DNA of 64,000 nt from positions 5,792,001 to 5,856,000 of the forward strand of contig NC_019738.1 of the NCBI RefSeq assembly GCF_000317515.1. Reading direction: 5' to 3'. The stretch's first letter is position 1. Each line of letters opens with the position of its first letter. The stretch is from Allocoleopsis franciscana PCC 7113 (GTDB taxonomy: Bacteria; Cyanobacteriota; Cyanobacteriia; Cyanobacteriales; Coleofasciculaceae). The notes under the pieces were generated by a model, which saw nothing but the letters and a program-made list of their open reading frames with translations, was not told where the DNA came from and did not search any database. Made by a program: the position numbers and the translations under genes. Below, piece after piece: positions 4,548 to 47,184 of this stretch.

Positions 4548-5168
4548 TTAGCGAAGCCAACCTTTGATCAGATCTAATAGACTTGTACCACCTATCAACA
4601 GCGCTATCAGGATTGAGGCGCTAAGAATACCTCCCATCAGGCAAAGCACTAACCCTCCCAAACTGATTGCGCCGTCATCTTCAATTAATCCAAAGCCTGT
4701 AACAAAAATGCCCATAGCCGGTAGGGTATTTGTACCAGGGATGGGAATCATCATCGAAATGCCCATCAGCGCGATCGCAATTCCCATTGTTACCCGCCCA
4801 GGCAAACTCGTGCAAATATAACTCAGACGGGGGCGGGTGATCATTTCAATCCGCCGCAACCACGGGAGTCCCGCCTTGATCACCCCCTGCACTTGATTGA
4901 GTTCCATTGGGTGATTGCTAATCTTTGCAGGTAGCCAGGGGAGTTTATGCCCACTAATCAACTGCAAGGCCAAGAGAAAAAGCACAAATCCAAACGGGGT
5001 GGAATAACCAGGTGCAGGCACTGGTAAAGCCGAAGGCAACGCAAGAATCACGAATAAGAAACCAAAAACCCGTTCCCCCGCTAGTTGCAGAATTTCTGTC
5101 AATGTGACTTTGGCGGGGCGTTCTTCCTCAAAAAAATAGCGCTGTAATTCTACGGAGAGTTTAGCCAT
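4548..5168 (-). CDS. ExoD family exopolysaccharide synthesis protein, copy 1
   Basis: 206 residues with an ATG start. It shows the ExoD-family pattern: N-terminal LTEILQLAGERVFGFLFVIL, then LPVPAPGYSTPFGFVLFLLA and GHKLPWLP, and at least three hydrophobic segments, including MGIAIALMGISMMIPIPGTN. ExoD proteins are membrane proteins associated with exopolysaccharide production; the biochemical role is unknown. It is paralogous to the next gene upstream (5300-5911), and both the coding region and the leader just before the start are recognisably duplicated. DedA follows immediately downstream. Confidence 0.85.
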   Translation of the reverse strand: MAKLSVELQRYFFEEERPAKVTLTEILQLAGERVFGFLFVILALPSALPVPAPGYSTPFGFVLFLLALQLISGHKLPWLPAKISNHPMELNQVQGVIKAGLPWLRRIEMITRPRLSYICTSLPGRVTMGIAIALMGISMMIPIPGTNTLPAMGIFVTGFGLIEDDGAISLGGLVLCLMGGILSASILIALLIGGTSLLDLIKGWLR

Positions 5169-5299
5169 TACACTTAGAGAACTGTGATACTTTAAATCCT
5201 AAAATTAGCACCCTTAGAAAACTCAAGCTAGTCAATCCGAGTATTCTTTAAATGAGTCAATCGTGTTTTAGTTAGCGTAACAATCCTGCCACGGCTCAA

Positions 5300-24544: not shown

Positions 24545-27337
24545 TTAAGACGGCTCAAGTACGGCTACGGAAGCAGATTTATTATTCTCGCGATCGCTAC
24601 TTTGATGTATCGGAATTTCAATCAAAAACGCGGTTCCTTGTCCGGGCGCTGATTCACATATCAGTATCCCTTTATGCTTTTCTACCACAATTTGATAACT
24701 GATGGATAGCCCTAATCCTGTGCCTTTTCCCATGGGTTTGGTGGTAAAGAAAGGGTCAAAAAGTTGGCTCTTAGCCTCTTCTGTGATTCCCGAACCATTA
24801 TCTGCAATTCTTATGGTAACTTGATTGAGGGATGAAACTTTGGTGCAAATCCAGATAGTGGGAGAAAAATCGGATCGAGAATTTTTAAACTCATCCTGTA
24901 CTTCTTCCACAGCATCAATGGCATTCCCTAGGAGATTCATAAACACTTGATTGAGCTGAGAGGGATAACACTCTACCAAGGGGAGTTCTCCATACTCCTT
25001 AATTAAATTGATAGCGGGGCGATCGCTATTAGCTTTCAGGCGGTTATTTAAGATTAAAAGAGTACTCTCAATCCCGTCATGAATATTGACGGGTTGCATC
25101 TGGGTTTGGTCACGGCGAGAGAAGTTGCGTAAACTCAAGACCAGATGGCGAATCCGTTCTGCTCCAGTTGCCATTGAGGAGAGAACTTTGGGTAAATCCT
25201 CGATTAAAAAATCCAATTCCACCGCTTCAGCATGAGCCTGAATTTCCCGTGCGGGCTTGGGGTAATACTTTTGATAGAGGCGGACTAAGTCCAATAAATC
25301 TTTAATATATTCGTTAGCATAGTGCAGGTTGCCGTAAATAAAACTGGTGGGGTTGTTAATTTCGTGAGCCACACCCGCCACCAGGGTGCCTAAGGTAGAC
25401 ATTTTTTCTGTTTGCACTAATTGCGCTTGGTAAGAATGTAAGTCATGCAGGGCTTTCTTGAGTTGTTCAGCTTGAGCCGTCGCTAAAGTTGCCGCTGTGC
25501 GACTTTGAGCATAAAGTGCAGATTGATCGATGGCGATCGCCACTTGATCCACCACCGCACCAATTAATTCCACTTCATGATGGTTCCAAGGGCGGTTCCC
25601 GCGAAAGTGTTCACAAACAATCACTCCTTTTTGGTGGGAACGAGTTTGCACCGGTGCAACCAATAGTGCTCTTAATCCTAAAGCTTGTAGGCGATCGCGA
25701 CTATTGATTTCCAACTGCTCATCACTGGCAATCTCATCAATTCGCAGGACTTCCCGTTCATGCACGGGTTTGTTGATCGTCTTCACCTGCTCAATGGTAC
25801 TCGGCCAGTATAATTCAACCGGAAGTTGAGGGTCATAAGCCGCGTGCATCAGTTCATATCGAGAGGAGTCTGTCGATTTGTGGTACCACAAGAACTGACA
25901 GCGATCGATCTGAAGTAAACTGCGGACTTCTTGAACGGCTGTTTTTAAGATTTCATCTAACTCCAGGGAACTGCGGATTTGGCTAGAGAGACGACGTTTG
26001 AGCAATTCTTCTCGCGCTTGCACTTCTCGATATCGCGCTTCTGCTTGTACGAGTTCGTCCTGCGTTTTTTGCAGCCGTTGGTTGGTTGCCAGCAATTGAG
26101 CCATCGCCGCTTCCACTTCACGGGACTTTTGTTCCAGCAGGCAACTATATTGAATCGACTGTGAGACTTCTGCCAGCATATCAAAGACGACCGGCGAGAC
26201 ACTCTCACTTAATTCTTCAAGTCCTAACCAAGGATGGGGTTTGATCGCACCCGCGCTGGTAAAAACGATCTGAAATTGACCATTGGGTAAAATTTTGCCA
26301 ATGCGGCAATGCTTGCGGACATGATTATTCTTTTCAATGCTAACCATACCCCCCGGTGCTTCAAAGGTTTGCCCATAAGCGGCTTCACGCACTAAATCGA
26401 CCTGAAAGGAGCCAGCTTTTTCCACTGATTGTTTCCACAAGTAGACTTGAGTATAAGCAGCCTCAATGGGGTCACAGGTGACGCGATCACACCCATACCG
26501 CTTCTGGAAATTCTCGACAAAGGCGCGATTTTTGGCGGTGTCGATACTTTGAAAGTAGCTCCAACTAGCATAGTGACCGGCGGCGGTGCTTCCCCCAATC
26601 CGTCGTAGTTCTTCTTCTGCGATACTGGTCGCCATGATCGGGATTTCTTCGGCACTAATCCCAGCCTCTTTGTATTGTTGGTAAAATGCCAGATTGCTAT
26701 CACCATTCAGGGCATTGAATACGACATGGGGCTTAATTTGCTGGATTCGCCGAATCACATTGCCAAATTCTGTGGTTCCCAAGGGAACATATTCTTCCCC
26801 GACTACTGTACCGCCTTTGCGAATGAGCTGAGCTTTCATGATTTTATTGGCGGTTCGGGGAAAAACGTAGTCAGAGCCAATTAGATAAAAGCGGGTTCCT
26901 TCGTGTTGCAGTAACCAATCAACGGCTGGGCCAACTTGTTGGTTGGGACAAATGCCGGTGTAGAAAATGTGTGGTGAGCATTCTAGTCCTTCATACTCAA
27001 CGGGATACCACAGTAGCGCGTTGTGTTCTTCCAAAACGGGTAAGACTGATTTGCGGCAAGATGAAGTCCAGCCGCCAAAAATGGTAGCAACATTGTCTCG
27101 TTCGATCAGGGTTCTGGCTTTGAGTGCGAAGGTTAGGGGGTCAGATTCTCCATCTTCGATCACGGGTTCAATGGTTCTGCCGAGGACACCACCAGCCGCG
27201 TTAATTTCTGCGATCGCCATCAACTCTGCATCTTTTAAGGATGCCTCACTAATCGCCATCGTTCCACTTAACGAGTGGAGAATTCCGACGCGCACACTGG
27301 CACCGGGACTAACACAGGGCTGGTTTATTTCATTCAT
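24545..27337 (-). CDS. Histidine kinase with UrtA/amide-binding-protein-like sensor domain, GAF and HisKA/HATPase modules
   Basis: 930 residues, ATG start. Residues 15-375 form a type 1 periplasmic-binding-protein fold of the urea/short-chain amide branch: VRVGILHSLSGTMAISEASL, AEINAAGGVLGRTIEPVIED, TIFGGWTSSCRKSVLPVLEE, WYPVEYEGLECSPHIFYTG, TTEFGNVIRRIQQIKPHVVF, and THE C-terminal HVRKHCRIGKI. There is no signal peptide or membrane helix, so the sensor domain should be in the cytoplasm. Then come a coiled coil (400-450), a GAF domain (about 455-605), HisKA with His658 in GVAHEINNP, and HATPase (about 760-910; DNGSGI, GKGTGLGLSISYQ). The catalytic half is closely similar to the kinases at 28857-30374 and 30662-35206. 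No response regulator is adjacent. Urea, amides or branched amino acids are candidate ligands by homology only. Confidence 0.88.
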   Translation of the reverse strand: MNEINQPCVSPGASVRVGILHSLSGTMAISEASLKDAELMAIAEINAAGGVLGRTIEPVIEDGESDPLTFALKARTLIERDNVATIFGGWTSSCRKSVLPVLEEHNALLWYPVEYEGLECSPHIFYTGICPNQQVGPAVDWLLQHEGTRFYLIGSDYVFPRTANKIMKAQLIRKGGTVVGEEYVPLGTTEFGNVIRRIQQIKPHVVFNALNGDSNLAFYQQYKEAGISAEEIPIMATSIAEEELRRIGGSTAAGHYASWSYFQSIDTAKNRAFVENFQKRYGCDRVTCDPIEAAYTQVYLWKQSVEKAGSFQVDLVREAAYGQTFEAPGGMVSIEKNNHVRKHCRIGKILPNGQFQIVFTSAGAIKPHPWLGLEELSESVSPVVFDMLAEVSQSIQYSCLLEQKSREVEAAMAQLLATNQRLQKTQDELVQAEARYREVQAREELLKRRLSSQIRSSLELDEILKTAVQEVRSLLQIDRCQFLWYHKSTDSSRYELMHAAYDPQLPVELYWPSTIEQVKTINKPVHEREVLRIDEIASDEQLEINSRDRLQALGLRALLVAPVQTRSHQKGVIVCEHFRGNRPWNHHEVELIGAVVDQVAIAIDQSALYAQSRTAATLATAQAEQLKKALHDLHSYQAQLVQTEKMSTLGTLVAGVAHEINNPTSFIYGNLHYANEYIKDLLDLVRLYQKYYPKPAREIQAHAEAVELDFLIEDLPKVLSSMATGAERIRHLVLSLRNFSRRDQTQMQPVNIHDGIESTLLILNNRLKANSDRPAINLIKEYGELPLVECYPSQLNQVFMNLLGNAIDAVEEVQDEFKNSRSDFSPTIWICTKVSSLNQVTIRIADNGSGITEEAKSQLFDPFFTTKPMGKGTGLGLSISYQIVVEKHKGILICESAPGQGTAFLIEIPIHQSSDRENNKSASVAVLEPS

Positions 27338-28103
27338 CTCTAGACTGTTCCCGAAATGTTCTTACTCTGGAGATCACGTAAAAGCGCCCCTCACCCTTCT
27401 GGCGCTTCAAGTGGCTAGCTTGATAGAAGTTTGATGGCTATCCGTTAAACCTCTTACCATCACCTGAAGGAACTGGGGATAGAAGGACACAGGGACATCT
27501 CCAGAAAAAATTTCCCAGTCTTCCTTCAATTCCTAACCAACACGAATCCCTCATTCCTCGTCAATAAACCGTTAAGCTTTATAAAAGTTCCATCCTTCAA
27601 CTTGATAGTTGCTAACAGTCTTTTAGATAAACTGTAGAAATAGTAACCGAATTCTAAAAGTAAGAATTGTAGTATTTTTTACTCTTAATCCAATCTTTTT
27701 GATTGAGACCGCAAAGCCACAGAAAAAACACAGACAAACGAACACTCCCACGCCGTCCTTTAGCGCTAAACAGGCTTTTCTTTTTATGTACTAAAAAGTG
27801 AGATAATTATTATTCTCTAATCTAAGTCGAGCAAAATTACGTTATCACATTCCGTTGGTTCCTACCTTAGCTTTTGTTTTCTGACGCATCACTCCAAGTC
27901 GCTGATGTTGAGGCTTCCAGGTAAGCTCCGTTACGGTCGGGGCTTAGCTAGAGTATTCAGGTTTATACACCGACCCATCCGATCATTACACGGCGTTACC
28001 ACTATATCCAGAAAAATTTTTCAACCCTTTTCCTCCCATTTGGAACCTAAACTCGCTATATGTATAGAAATGTATCTTTTTCATCTTGGAGCAATTTGAA
28101 CTA
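27338..28103. other. 766-bp spacer before the carbonic anhydrase gene, with one hairpin
   Basis: No supported gene; a 64-codon frame at 27905-28099 lacks a ribosome binding site and looks accidental. A 9-bp stem TAAGCTCCG (27922-27930) / CGGGGCTTA (27938-27946), with one G-T pair and a 7-base loop, lies about 160 bp before the carbonic anhydrase start and could be in its leader. Confidence 0.35.
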
Positions 28104-28800: not shown

Positions 28801-28865
28801 AGTATGAAAGATAAAGTATGAAGTGTGAAGCATGAAACTTTTTTATCCTTCATCCTTCATCCTTG
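28801..28865. repeat. Heptanucleotide repeat arrays between convergent genes
   Basis: Degenerate AGTATGA units (28801-28835) are followed by three ATCCTTC/G units (28845-28865) on the same strand. The two arrays are roughly complementary and can form an imperfect hairpin with a TTTTTT run between them. It may therefore terminate the carbonic anhydrase transcript. The kinase stop codon (28857-28859) lies inside the second array. A similar CCTTCATCCTTCAG...TTTTTT string occurs near 3759-3778 after the BON lipoprotein gene. Confidence 0.5.
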
Positions 28866-30374
28866 TAAAGCCATGGCGGTTGCTTTGAGGGTGGACAAAC
28901 TCCTACTCACTTGCAGTGGAAGTTCGATGCAAAACTCTGTTCCTTTACCCGGTGCCGACTCACACTTGAGGATACCCCCGTGCTTCTCCACCACAATTTG
29001 ATAGCTAATGGATAGCCCTAGCCCCGTACCTTTGCCAATTGGCTTAGTGGTGAAAAACGGGTCAAACAGTTGTGCTTGAACGTCTGGAGTGATGCCTGGG
29101 CCATTGTCACAAATTCGGATAATGACGCGAGAATGGTCAGGATTAACACGAGTCTGAATGGTAATACGACCGAGGTGATTAGGGACTTCCTCTAGAGCAT
29201 CAATGGCATTACTTAAGAGGTTCATAAAGACCTGATTGATTTGTCCGGCATAACACTCCACGGAGGGCAAGTCACCGTAGTCTTTAACCACTTCAATGGT
29301 GGGGCGATGATAGCGAGCTTTTAAGCGATTTTGCAAGATGAGCAAAGTACCATCAATACCTTCGTGAAGATTGACGGCTTCCATTAACAAGCGATCGCTA
29401 CGAGAAAAGTTACGCAACGACAGGACAATCTGGCGAACGCGATCCGCCCCAACTTGCATGGATTCTAGAACTTTTGGTAAATCTTTGAGCAGAAAATCCA
29501 AATCGATCGCTTTAATTTTGGCCTGTACTGGTGGATGGTGTTTGCCGTAGTACTCCTGATAAAGGTTCAGCAATGCTAATAAATCTTGGACATAGTCACT
29601 GGCGTAGCACAAATTGCCATAAATAAAGCTGACGGGATTATTAATTTCATGAGCGACACCAGCAACCATCTGACCAATGCTCGAAAGTTTCTCCGTTTCA
29701 ATGAGCTGGGCTTGAGTTCGTCGCAAGTCCAGTAAGGCTTTCTCTAACTGTTGAGCATGAGCTTGGGCTGCGGCTGTGGCAGCACAACTTTCTTGATAGA
29801 GTTGAGCCTGATAGAGTTCAACTTCGAGTTGAGCCTCATCACTTTCTTTTTGATATTGACTGACTAACGCCTCCAAAGCTTCAAGCAGGTCTTTCTCTGA
29901 AGCTTTCACAATAGTGGTTACATGGGGATGATTTAAGGTCAGTTCTAAGCTAGGGATTTGAGCCAAAGCCCTCACTTGAGAGATGTAGTGGCGGATTTGT
30001 TGATCCAGATAGAATGGGGCTTCAAAATAAATCGATTGGATTTCCTCAGAGGGTTGACCGGGTAATCTCAATTCAGGATCTCCATGAATCAACCCATTGT
30101 GGGATTTCTCCATCAAGTCGATAGCGGCTAACATTTTTTGACGCAGCTTTTCCTGTTCCCCTTCGTCTGGAGTAGAGACGAGTCTCAAAGCCAACAACGC
30201 CGCTCGTTGGGACAGCATTCGCTGGCGTCCACTAATATTGATAACGGCAGCATTAATTTCCCGTACCGAGATAATTTTATCGAGGTCAAAACAGAGTGCC
30301 AAGGTAATAATTGGCAGCAATTTTAAGTAGCATAGATTTCCGAAAATACTAGCACATCTTAATATTTTCTGCAT
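28857..30374 (-). CDS. Histidine kinase with PilJ-type (type IV pili chemoreceptor) N-terminal domain
   Basis: 505 residues, ATG start. A hydrophobic stretch at about 14-28 is followed by the PilJ/NIT-like motif AAVINISGRQRMLSQRAALL and the paired helices expected of that domain (to about 170). Then come a coiled coil (180-235), HisKA with His242 in GVAHEINNP, and HATPase (about 345-490; CDNGPGI, GKGTGLGLSISYQ). The family normally has a membrane helix on each side of the PilJ domain; here no second helix is visible before the coil, so topology is odd. The catalytic module is closely similar to the kinases at 24545 and 30662. No response regulator is adjacent. Confidence 0.85.
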   Translation of the reverse strand: MQKILRCASIFGNLCYLKLLPIITLALCFDLDKIISVREINAAVINISGRQRMLSQRAALLALRLVSTPDEGEQEKLRQKMLAAIDLMEKSHNGLIHGDPELRLPGQPSEEIQSIYFEAPFYLDQQIRHYISQVRALAQIPSLELTLNHPHVTTIVKASEKDLLEALEALVSQYQKESDEAQLEVELYQAQLYQESCAATAAAQAHAQQLEKALLDLRRTQAQLIETEKLSSIGQMVAGVAHEINNPVSFIYGNLCYASDYVQDLLALLNLYQEYYGKHHPPVQAKIKAIDLDFLLKDLPKVLESMQVGADRVRQIVLSLRNFSRSDRLLMEAVNLHEGIDGTLLILQNRLKARYHRPTIEVVKDYGDLPSVECYAGQINQVFMNLLSNAIDALEEVPNHLGRITIQTRVNPDHSRVIIRICDNGPGITPDVQAQLFDPFFTTKPIGKGTGLGLSISYQIVVEKHGGILKCESAPGKGTEFCIELPLQVSRSLSTLKATAMALQG

Positions 30375-44757: not shown

Positions 44758-45075
44758 CAATCTTCACTCCCTGAATAGAATAATAACCAAGCCCAGGAAA
44801 AACCTCCCTGGACTCTAACATCGGTGTATACACAAGCCTTAGCGCCGACTCCACAGATTTTGATTTTGTGTCATTCCTTAAAAATTGTTCAGAATCAGCC
44901 TGCTAATTTCTCCTAGAACGGTAAAATAGACATTTGGTATTTCTCCTAGCCAGCCGCCCACTCCTGGAGAGAACGATAAGGAGTGGCTCTTGCAGTGGCT
45001 ATATTGCCTTTTGCGTTCGCTTGTAGAAAGGGGATTTCTCGCCTTTTCAGCATCCACCTCAGCTTAAAACCCATT
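44758..45075. other. 318-bp divergent spacer upstream of argZ
   Basis: Divergent promoter region. The argZ frame is open from 44983, but the added 31 residues are not conserved in type and I do not count them as coding. No riboswitch or operator was recognised. Confidence 0.35.
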
Positions 45076-47184
45076 ATGACTGATTCGATTCGCTTCCTCA
45101 TGTGCTCCCCTCAACACTACGACGTGGATTATGTGATTAATCCATGGATGGAGGGCAATATTCACAAGTCTTCGCGCGATCGCGCCGTGGAACAGTGGCA
45201 AAAGCTGCACTACGCGCTCAAAGACCGGGCACTCGTCGATCTGGTTGAACCTCAACCCGGTTGGCCGGATATGGTATTTACAGCCAATGCCGGTTTAGTT
45301 TTGGGTAAGACTGTCGTCCTCAGCCGCTTCCTCCACAAAGAGCGTCAGGGTGAGGAACCTTACTTCAAACAGTGGTTTGAAAGCCAAGGTTACACCGTCC
45401 ATGAACTCCCAAAAGACCTCCCCTTTGAAGGGGCGGGGGATGCGTTACTCGACCGAGAAGGACGCTGGTTATGGGCGGGTTATGGTTTCCGTTCGGAACT
45501 CGACTCTCACCCCTACCTAGCTAAATGGCTTGACATCGAAGTGGTATCGCTGCGGTTAGCCGATGAGCGGTTCTATCACCTCGATACCTGCTTCTGTCCC
45601 CTCACGGGTGGCTATTTACTCTACTACCCACCCGCCTTCGATGCCTACTCCAACCGCTTGATTGAAATGCGGGTGGCACCGGAAAAACGGATTGCACTGG
45701 ATGAGCCAGATGCGGTGAACTTCGCCTGTAATGCGGTGAATATCGACCAAGTGGTGGTGATGAATAAAGCCAGTGAGGACTTGAAAAAGCGTCTTACTGC
45801 TGTTGGGTTTGAAGTGGTTGAAACACCCCTCACCGAATTCTTGAAAGCCGGTGGTGCGGCGAAGTGCCTGACGCTGCGAGTCACTGAACCCGTTCGCGCC
45901 GAAATCCATGCCAATACCGCGGTGGAAAGCCGCGTCGTGCGGATGGAGGGACACTTACTCGATTCTGGCCTGATCAGCAGGGCGCTCGATTTGGTGGTGG
46001 AAAATGGGGGCAGTTTCCAAGTTCTCAATTTCAACCTGGGAGAACAGCGGCAAAGTACCTCCAGTGCGGAGGTAAAGGTATCGGCTCCTTCCCATGATTT
46101 GATGGAAGAGATGATGACCCTGCTGATCGATTTGGGTGCGGTGGCTCCGCCCCAAGAGGTATGTGATAGCAATCTGGAACCTGTGATTCAAGATGGTGTG
46201 GCTCCGGATGACTTTTATGTCACGACGATCTATCCAACTGAAGTGCGGGTTAATTGTGAGTGGATTAAGGTACACAATCAGCGCATGGATGGTGCGATCG
46301 CCATTACCCATACCCCCGATGGCCCAGTGGCTCACTGCAAACTGTTGCGGGACTTAAAAGTGGGTGAACATGTGATTGTCGGGGTGGAAGGGATTCGCAC
46401 GGTACGCAAGACGGAATCTCGCGAACAGCGCAACACCCAGGAATTTAGCTTTATGGCATCCGGTGTTTCCAGCGAACGTCGGGTGGAATTGGTTGTGGAG
46501 CAAATTGCTTGGGAATTGCGTCAACTGCGCGATCGCGGCGGTAAAGTTGTGGTAACAGCCGGGCCGGTGGTGATTCATACCGGTGGCAGTCAGCACCTAG
46601 CGCGTCTGATTCGGGAAGGTTATGTGCAGGCGCTTCTGGGAGGAAATGCGATCGCGGTTCACGACATTGAGCAATCCTTGATGGGAACCTCTCTCGGCGT
46701 GGATATGAAACGCGGCGTTCCAGTTCGGGGCGGACATCGGCACCATCTGAAAGTGATTAACCTAATCCGTCGCTATGGCAATATTGCCGCCGCCGTAGAA
46801 CATGGGGTATTGACAAAAGGCGTGATGTATGAATGTGTGCGTAACAATGTGCCCTTTGTTCTTGCCGGTTCGATCCGCGATGATGGCCCCCTGCCGGATA
46901 CCGAGATGGATTTAATTAAAGCTCAAACCGAGTATGCCAAGCAGTTGGAAGGGGCGGACATGATTTTGATGCTCTCCAGTATGCTCCACTCGATTGGGGT
47001 GGGGAATATGACACCTGCGGGGGTGAAGATGGTGTGCGTGGATATTAACCCATCTGTAGTGACGAAATTAAGCGATCGCGGTTCTGTGGAATCCGTCGGC
47101 GTTGTCACAGATGTTGGTTTATTCCTCAGCTTGTTGGTACAGCAACTGGATAAATTGACGAGTCCTTATCAAGCGATGGTGTAG
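45076..47184 (+). CDS. argZ: Arginine dihydrolase / bifunctional ArgZ-AgrE type (TIGR00300 C-terminal domain)
   Basis: 702 residues from the ATG at 45076. This start is preferred over upstream frame because the residues known to matter in Synechocystis ArgZ fall at the same numbers: Asn71 (FTANAGLVL), Glu118 (FEGAGD), His168 (RFYHLD) and Cys264 (AAKCLTLRV). The N-terminal half (1-270) is a guanidine-modifying fold that hydrolyses arginine to ornithine, CO2 and two ammonia. The C-terminal half (GVSSERRVELVVEQIAWELR; VVVTAGPVVIHTGGSQHLAR; GNAIAVHDIEQSLMGTSLGV) is the LOR/SDH or TIGR00300 part, reported to act as ornithine cyclodeaminase in Anabaena AgrE. Together they turn arginine to proline and drive nitrogen remobilisation, including from cyanophycin. 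It is followed by its own terminator. Confidence 0.96.
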   Translation: MTDSIRFLMCSPQHYDVDYVINPWMEGNIHKSSRDRAVEQWQKLHYALKDRALVDLVEPQPGWPDMVFTANAGLVLGKTVVLSRFLHKERQGEEPYFKQWFESQGYTVHELPKDLPFEGAGDALLDREGRWLWAGYGFRSELDSHPYLAKWLDIEVVSLRLADERFYHLDTCFCPLTGGYLLYYPPAFDAYSNRLIEMRVAPEKRIALDEPDAVNFACNAVNIDQVVVMNKASEDLKKRLTAVGFEVVETPLTEFLKAGGAAKCLTLRVTEPVRAEIHANTAVESRVVRMEGHLLDSGLISRALDLVVENGGSFQVLNFNLGEQRQSTSSAEVKVSAPSHDLMEEMMTLLIDLGAVAPPQEVCDSNLEPVIQDGVAPDDFYVTTIYPTEVRVNCEWIKVHNQRMDGAIAITHTPDGPVAHCKLLRDLKVGEHVIVGVEGIRTVRKTESREQRNTQEFSFMASGVSSERRVELVVEQIAWELRQLRDRGGKVVVTAGPVVIHTGGSQHLARLIREGYVQALLGGNAIAVHDIEQSLMGTSLGVDMKRGVPVRGGHRHHLKVINLIRRYGNIAAAVEHGVLTKGVMYECVRNNVPFVLAGSIRDDGPLPDTEMDLIKAQTEYAKQLEGADMILMLSSMLHSIGVGNMTPAGVKMVCVDINPSVVTKLSDRGSVESVGVVTDVGLFLSLLVQQLDKLTSPYQAMV

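Follow-up and report, generated by a model that had tools for sequence, protein, structure and literature searches.

What can a binding domain of the urea-transporter type report when it is joined to a histidine kinase and kept inside the cell? The question is raised by a gene encoding a protein of 930 aa, here referred to as UrtA-kinase, which lies on the minus strand (24545..27337) of the 64,000-nt stretch of DNA that was analyzed (the window). We address in turn its architecture and location, the family to which it belongs, and the compound that it may sense.

Architecture and cellular location of UrtA-kinase

The open reading frame is real, and the plus strand of the same interval is crowded with stops. 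Residues 15-372 (26222..27295; this and all features below are on the minus strand) form a UrtA-type ligand-binding domain (Peripla_BP_5), which matched PF13433 with 522 bits (cut-off 27) and the UrtA model TIGR03407 with 526.4 bits against a curated cut-off of 492.75, covering model positions 1-360 of 361; the structures 8TG1, 7S6E and 8HIC were also matched. Because the UrtA cut-off is passed, annotation pipelines may mistake such kinases for components of a transporter. The domain is 58% identical to the UrtA of the same genome, 53% to Prochlorococcus UrtA (8HIC) and 35% to AmiC. The initial annotation had assigned the N-terminal part to the type 1 binding-protein fold and, within it, to the UrtA/AmiC/FmdD branch, with LivJ as a further comparison. 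The profile search bears out the fold, and by these matches the domain is specifically UrtA-like and not LivJ-like.

The binding domain is followed by a linker at residues 373-458 (25964..26221; PWLGLEE...VVFDMLAEVSQSIQ...LEQKSREVEA), with a predicted long helix at 382-454, by a GAF domain (residues 459-603; 25529..25963), by a HisKA/DHp region of approximate boundaries (25103..25420) with the phospho-acceptor His658 in VAGVAHEINNP, and by an HATPase_c catalytic domain (domain match at residues 792-910; 24608..24964). The HisKA match (residues 649-674) scored 23.4 bits, short of its cut-off (26.9); the kinase boxes are nevertheless present (H658, NLLGNAIDA at 801, DNGSGI at 846 and GKGTGLGLS at 870), and the phospho-acceptor His and the N, G1 and G2 boxes are largely invariant in eight orthologs. 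Orthologs with the same architecture, also leaderless, occur in at least 15 other genomes, and the fusion is not a chance product. A structure prediction from eight orthologs (mean pLDDT 54.8, pTM 0.30) was too weak for a fold search or for pocket geometry.

Regarding location, an in-frame TAA (27362..27364) lies 8 codons upstream of the ATG (TAA GAA CAT TTC GGG AAC AGT CTA GAG ATG) with no start codon in between, so that there is no earlier start, the open frame extends to 938 codons at most, and a signal peptide gained from an upstream start is ruled out. Neither a signal peptide nor a transmembrane helix was found in UrtA-kinase, the maximum 19-residue hydropathy being 1.28, within the GAF part. 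The absence of both places the binding domain in the cytoplasm, and by its architecture the protein is a cytoplasmic sensor histidine kinase, in line with the leaderless GAF-HisKA-HATPase layout free of membrane helices that had initially been described.

A family of UrtA-domain fusions and its genomic setting

We surveyed 389 genomes of the same order with a profile built from the domain and the linker. It recovered 71 fusions in 52 genomes with scores of at least 637 bits, a count made by hand from the profile matches and missing some fusions that score lower; the next matches, from 582 bits, were stand-alone frames of UrtA size. In the family of this genome, a fusion is present in 17 of 20 genomes. 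A genome scan for homologues, which reaches close relatives only, placed this genome close to Coleofasciculus and Symplocastrum, and among the best 40 plasmid records a single one, cyanobacterial, matched beyond the binding domain. By Pfam scans the soluble fusions have four outputs, namely a histidine kinase preceded by GAF, a PAS-containing class III cyclase, GGDEF and SpoIIE phosphatase (the last in L161, 3362-5470, minus); HAMP kinases, some of them with a receiver, are the output of a branch of its own that has two membrane helices. A maximum-likelihood tree of 74 domains, built quickly, gathered the soluble fusions into a single group (46 rows, SH-aLRT 98) distinct from UrtA, with several long-branched members and an uncertain inner order. 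The linker motif PWLGxEE...IDMLAEVSQxIQ...LEQKSRELEA is common to the soluble fusions inspected, including cyclase and GGDEF proteins, and true UrtA lacks it. By domain content and tree position, the soluble fusions make up a widespread cyanobacterial family in which one binding domain would drive at least four signalling outputs inside the cell.

A search of open-licence papers found none on a UrtA-kinase fusion, and the cytoplasmic family is apparently undescribed so far. The use of a binding-protein fold as an intracellular sensor, initially noted as unusual, is so in textbook terms but is no oddity, since it recurs across cyanobacteria with four soluble outputs and has precedents in AmiC and NasS. 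A review of c-di-GMP sensing describes the binding-protein clan as one of periplasmic domains (PMC8846402); in contrast, a domain of this clan appears here as an input of general use in the cytoplasm, with four classes of output within a bacterial order.

Three strong UrtA-type domains are present in the genome: the exported UrtA, UrtA-kinase and a UrtA-cyclase fusion. The true urtA is at C1:3169643, with urtBCDE downstream and urease about 17 kb away; UrtA-kinase is not adjacent to urt genes. Directly after urtABCDE lies a histidine kinase of the HAMP type that shares its DHp group with UrtA-kinase (L008, 10460-12367, plus). The cyclase fusion (L007, 3092-5827, minus; C1:5722657) lies 95 kb from UrtA-kinase, has a PAS-PAS-class III cyclase layout, keeps Gln144 (UrtA numbering) and has Tyr190 replaced by Ser. 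One family has a UrtA paralog that stands alone, is anchored in the membrane and keeps 9/9 pocket residues, directly beside a dCache/HAMP membrane histidine kinase (L056 6142-7410, L057 6872-8272, L058 6762-8102); here a UrtA-type domain and a kinase have been paired independently, in a split, probably extracytoplasmic version.

The annotated neighbours of UrtA-kinase are a carbonic anhydrase, kinases, MnmE and an SbcC-like ATPase; there is no ANTAR antiterminator among them, and the window gave no Rfam match. A functional tie to the carbonic anhydrase, hinted at in the initial annotation, was abandoned, as only close relatives (L009/L092, L014, L101) retain this divergent gene beside UrtA-kinase and most orthologs have lost it there. 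A PilJ-domain histidine kinase (28857..30374) contains a possible nitrate-type P-box, SGRQRM, that fits the G-x-x-R form described for this box (PMC8199190). It lies near UrtA-kinase in the window, L014 and L101, and in L152 and L166, which belong to another family, the gene directly downstream of UrtA-kinase encodes a kinase that shares this PilJ domain and is 49% identical to it; the neighbourhood is kept across two families. We infer that the two kinases may form a pair of nitrogen-source sensors. Immediately upstream, on the same strand, of three UrtA-kinases lies a receiver protein with a coiled-coil-like tail (L049 9142-9744, L157 6699-7286, L158 7572-8219), the single ortholog of which in the present genome (C1:1691065-1691619) is unlinked to UrtA-kinase; since in several genomes it stands beside a lipA-like gene (named by eye) with no kinase there, it is only a candidate partner. 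The window also holds, 18 kb from UrtA-kinase, a gene for an ArgZ-like arginine dihydrolase (44983-47184), an enzyme that releases nitrogen from arginine.

The binding pocket and its candidate ligand

In the urea-bound structure of Prochlorococcus UrtA nine residues line the pocket, with hydrogen bonds from Ser122, Gln144, Tyr190 and Asn246, and for four residues, Gln144 among them, mutation leads to a marked drop in urea binding or to its loss (PMC10392092). Mapped onto it by alignment, the pocket of UrtA-kinase consists of W90, S92, Y111, E114, E116, Y157, F159, N211 and S238, and the comparison with UrtA initially suggested gives eight of nine residues as identical. Within the UrtA contact set (W120, S122, Y141, Q144, E146, Y190, N246, S274) all are retained except Q144, and the sole pocket change is Gln144 to Glu (Glu114, codon GAG at 26996..26998), diagnostic of the UrtA-kinase group. 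This position is Gln in every true UrtA row of the comparison set and Glu in all 16 inspected proteins of the group and in none of the other proteins sampled; among tree-set members it is Glu in 10/10 of the group and Gln in 30 of the 35 other soluble fusions. The ten tree members with Glu cluster together (support 84), consistent with one Gln to Glu change. Among the UrtA-invariant columns, 144 is the clear case fixed otherwise in this group but not in most sister fusions. Outside the pocket, residue 130 (UrtA position 160) has changed from Ala to Cys in 45/45 soluble fusions, Cys being absent there from true UrtA.

Taken together, (i) the fold family, (ii) the domain order, (iii) the lack of export and membrane signals, (iv) the near-intact pocket, (v) the kinase boxes, (vi) the single clade and (vii) the presence of urt, urease and guanidine-hydrolase-like genes support the reading that UrtA-kinase is, rather probably, a receptor that binds urea or a close analogue in the cytoplasm and gates its kinase in cis. 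The distribution of the fusions speaks for it as well, a further UrtA-type match being present in 50 of 52 fusion genomes against 275 of 337 genomes without a fusion (Fisher p 0.008, kinship ignored). An ancestral UrtA-type urea-binding domain would have lost its export signal and been joined, via a conserved helical linker, to signalling outputs. Its two lobes would close around a small cytosolic ligand, presumably urea or a very close analogue, and closure would turn the coiled-coil linker and be relayed by GAF to the DHp helices of a putatively dimeric kinase, altering its autophosphorylation or phosphatase activity and, in whichever direction the signal may run, acting on a presumed partner response regulator. 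In other binding-protein-driven kinases ligand-induced lobe closure resets the kinase dimer. UrtA-kinase would in this way report urea-type nitrogen, either entered by UrtABCDE or made inside, for example from guanidine. An internal source of urea is conceivable because a GdmH-like gene of the arginase family (the enzyme being named by resemblance) is preceded in this genome by a guanidine-I riboswitch. At locus L118 such a riboswitch (5068-5201, minus) precedes a GdmH-like gene together with genes for a HypB-like GTPase and an ABC uptake system.

Counting against this reading is the replacement of Gln144, one of the residues on which urea binding by UrtA depends. As Gln144 is Glu, among the proteins sampled, only in the UrtA-kinase group, specificity or affinity for the ligand may have shifted, and a switch to a cation such as guanidinium is possible. 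An alternative with the same architecture and mechanism thus has the Glu-retuned pocket binding a charged or different relative of urea (guanidinium, methylguanidine, another amide or amidine); we consider it fairly unlikely: the invariant column 144 fixed otherwise throughout the group, with Gln kept in most other fusions, and the riboswitch before the GdmH-like gene speak for it, but Glu keeps the hydrogen-bond acceptor role of the Gln side chain toward urea in the crystal structure and the other eight contacts are unchanged. Moreover, under stricter filters only part of the genomes of the Glu-type group gave a guanidine-I riboswitch; no association was visible, and the riboswitch was dropped as a predictor of the group. 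Urea is still the simplest guess, since Glu can accept hydrogen bonds from the urea nitrogen. A urea-like ligand, as first proposed, is probable, and urea itself is not certain given the Glu. Urease does not discriminate: 334 of the 389 genomes carry it, so its near universality makes fusion-urease co-occurrence uninformative, and this test was discarded. The fusion carrier G213, listed as 100% complete, gave no urease match.

That the UrtA domain is a relic kept for structure or for dimerization, binds no ligand and leaves GAF as the true sensor is improbable. A few related cyclase fusions (L053, L054, L055) have indeed been stripped of most pocket residues, and with such degraded pockets in the family not every member need bind a ligand; against this, in the UrtA-kinase group every ortholog, even at 66% overall identity, keeps the pocket, and retention across 45 soluble fusions is 0.90 for pocket columns and 0.72 for other UrtA-invariant columns, with all nine pocket residues kept in 24 of the 45. 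Still less credible is a domain that responds to a protein, be it the UrtBCDE transporter or some other partner, instead of a free ligand: AmiC and NasS do work by protein-protein contact (PMC3795266), and a further UrtA-type match exists in 50/52 fusion genomes, but no linkage of fusions to urt genes was seen in the loci inspected, and a cis fusion makes a trans partner unnecessary. Export of the domain to sense the periplasm, suggested by the export of all standard UrtA proteins and by paralogs with membrane helices after the domain (L046, L047, L050), is already refuted by the sequence, with its upstream stop and its lack of a leader or of any membrane helix, and has a negligible chance of being right.

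If the favoured reading, a receptor for urea, is true, UrtA-kinase would sense urea directly within the cell and would reveal how the breakdown of internal urea or guanidine is linked in cyanobacteria to signals carried by phosphorylation, cAMP or c-di-GMP. It is also tempting to speculate, with no great confidence, about a wider division of labour: a cytoplasmic family of UrtA-derived receptors with kinase, class III cyclase, GGDEF or SpoIIE outputs, in which the Glu-retuned kinases would read another small nitrogen compound, such as guanidinium, than their urea-reading sisters and would in some genomes be paired with the PilJ-type (nitrate-like) sensor kinase.

Comparison with known systems

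UrtA-kinase resembles UrtA, the binding protein of the ABC urea transporter (TIGR03407; 8HIC, 7S6E), in fold, in identity (about 53-58%), in a profile score above the cut-off and in 8/9 urea-site residues. UrtA is exported or lipidated, stand-alone and encoded with urtBCDE, whereas UrtA-kinase is leaderless, encoded outside the urt operon, fused to a kinase and carries Glu for Gln144; it has also lost two glycines near 238-239 and shows further changes common to the soluble fusions. The Venus flytrap sensor kinases of the BvgS/EvgS type likewise use a binding-protein fold as histidine kinase input, with domains that belong to another Venus flytrap family and that are periplasmic and accompanied by membrane helices, in contrast to the wholly cytoplasmic UrtA-kinase.

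Precedents for cytoplasmic binding proteins of the transport type are AmiC and NasS, both separate proteins that act on antiterminators (PMC3795266). NasS, of the NasS-NasT nitrate regulator, is likewise a leaderless transport-type binding protein turned cytoplasmic nitrogen sensor (PMC3795266); unlike UrtA-kinase, it is an NrtA-type relative that binds nitrate and, as a separate protein, acts on an ANTAR regulator. AmiC, of the Pseudomonas aeruginosa amidase regulator AmiC-AmiR (1PEA, 1QO0), shares with UrtA-kinase the fold family, presumably an amide-type ligand, a role in regulation and not in transport, and the condition of a cytoplasmic binding protein without leader. At 35% identity, however, AmiC is a separate protein holding the antiterminator AmiR, whereas the UrtA-kinase domain would drive its kinase in cis, and the pocket of the latter is UrtA-like (W90, N211, S238) where AmiC has Y, V and T. 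Cytoplasmic use itself thus has precedents, and the new element is the cis fusion of a UrtA-type domain with several outputs.
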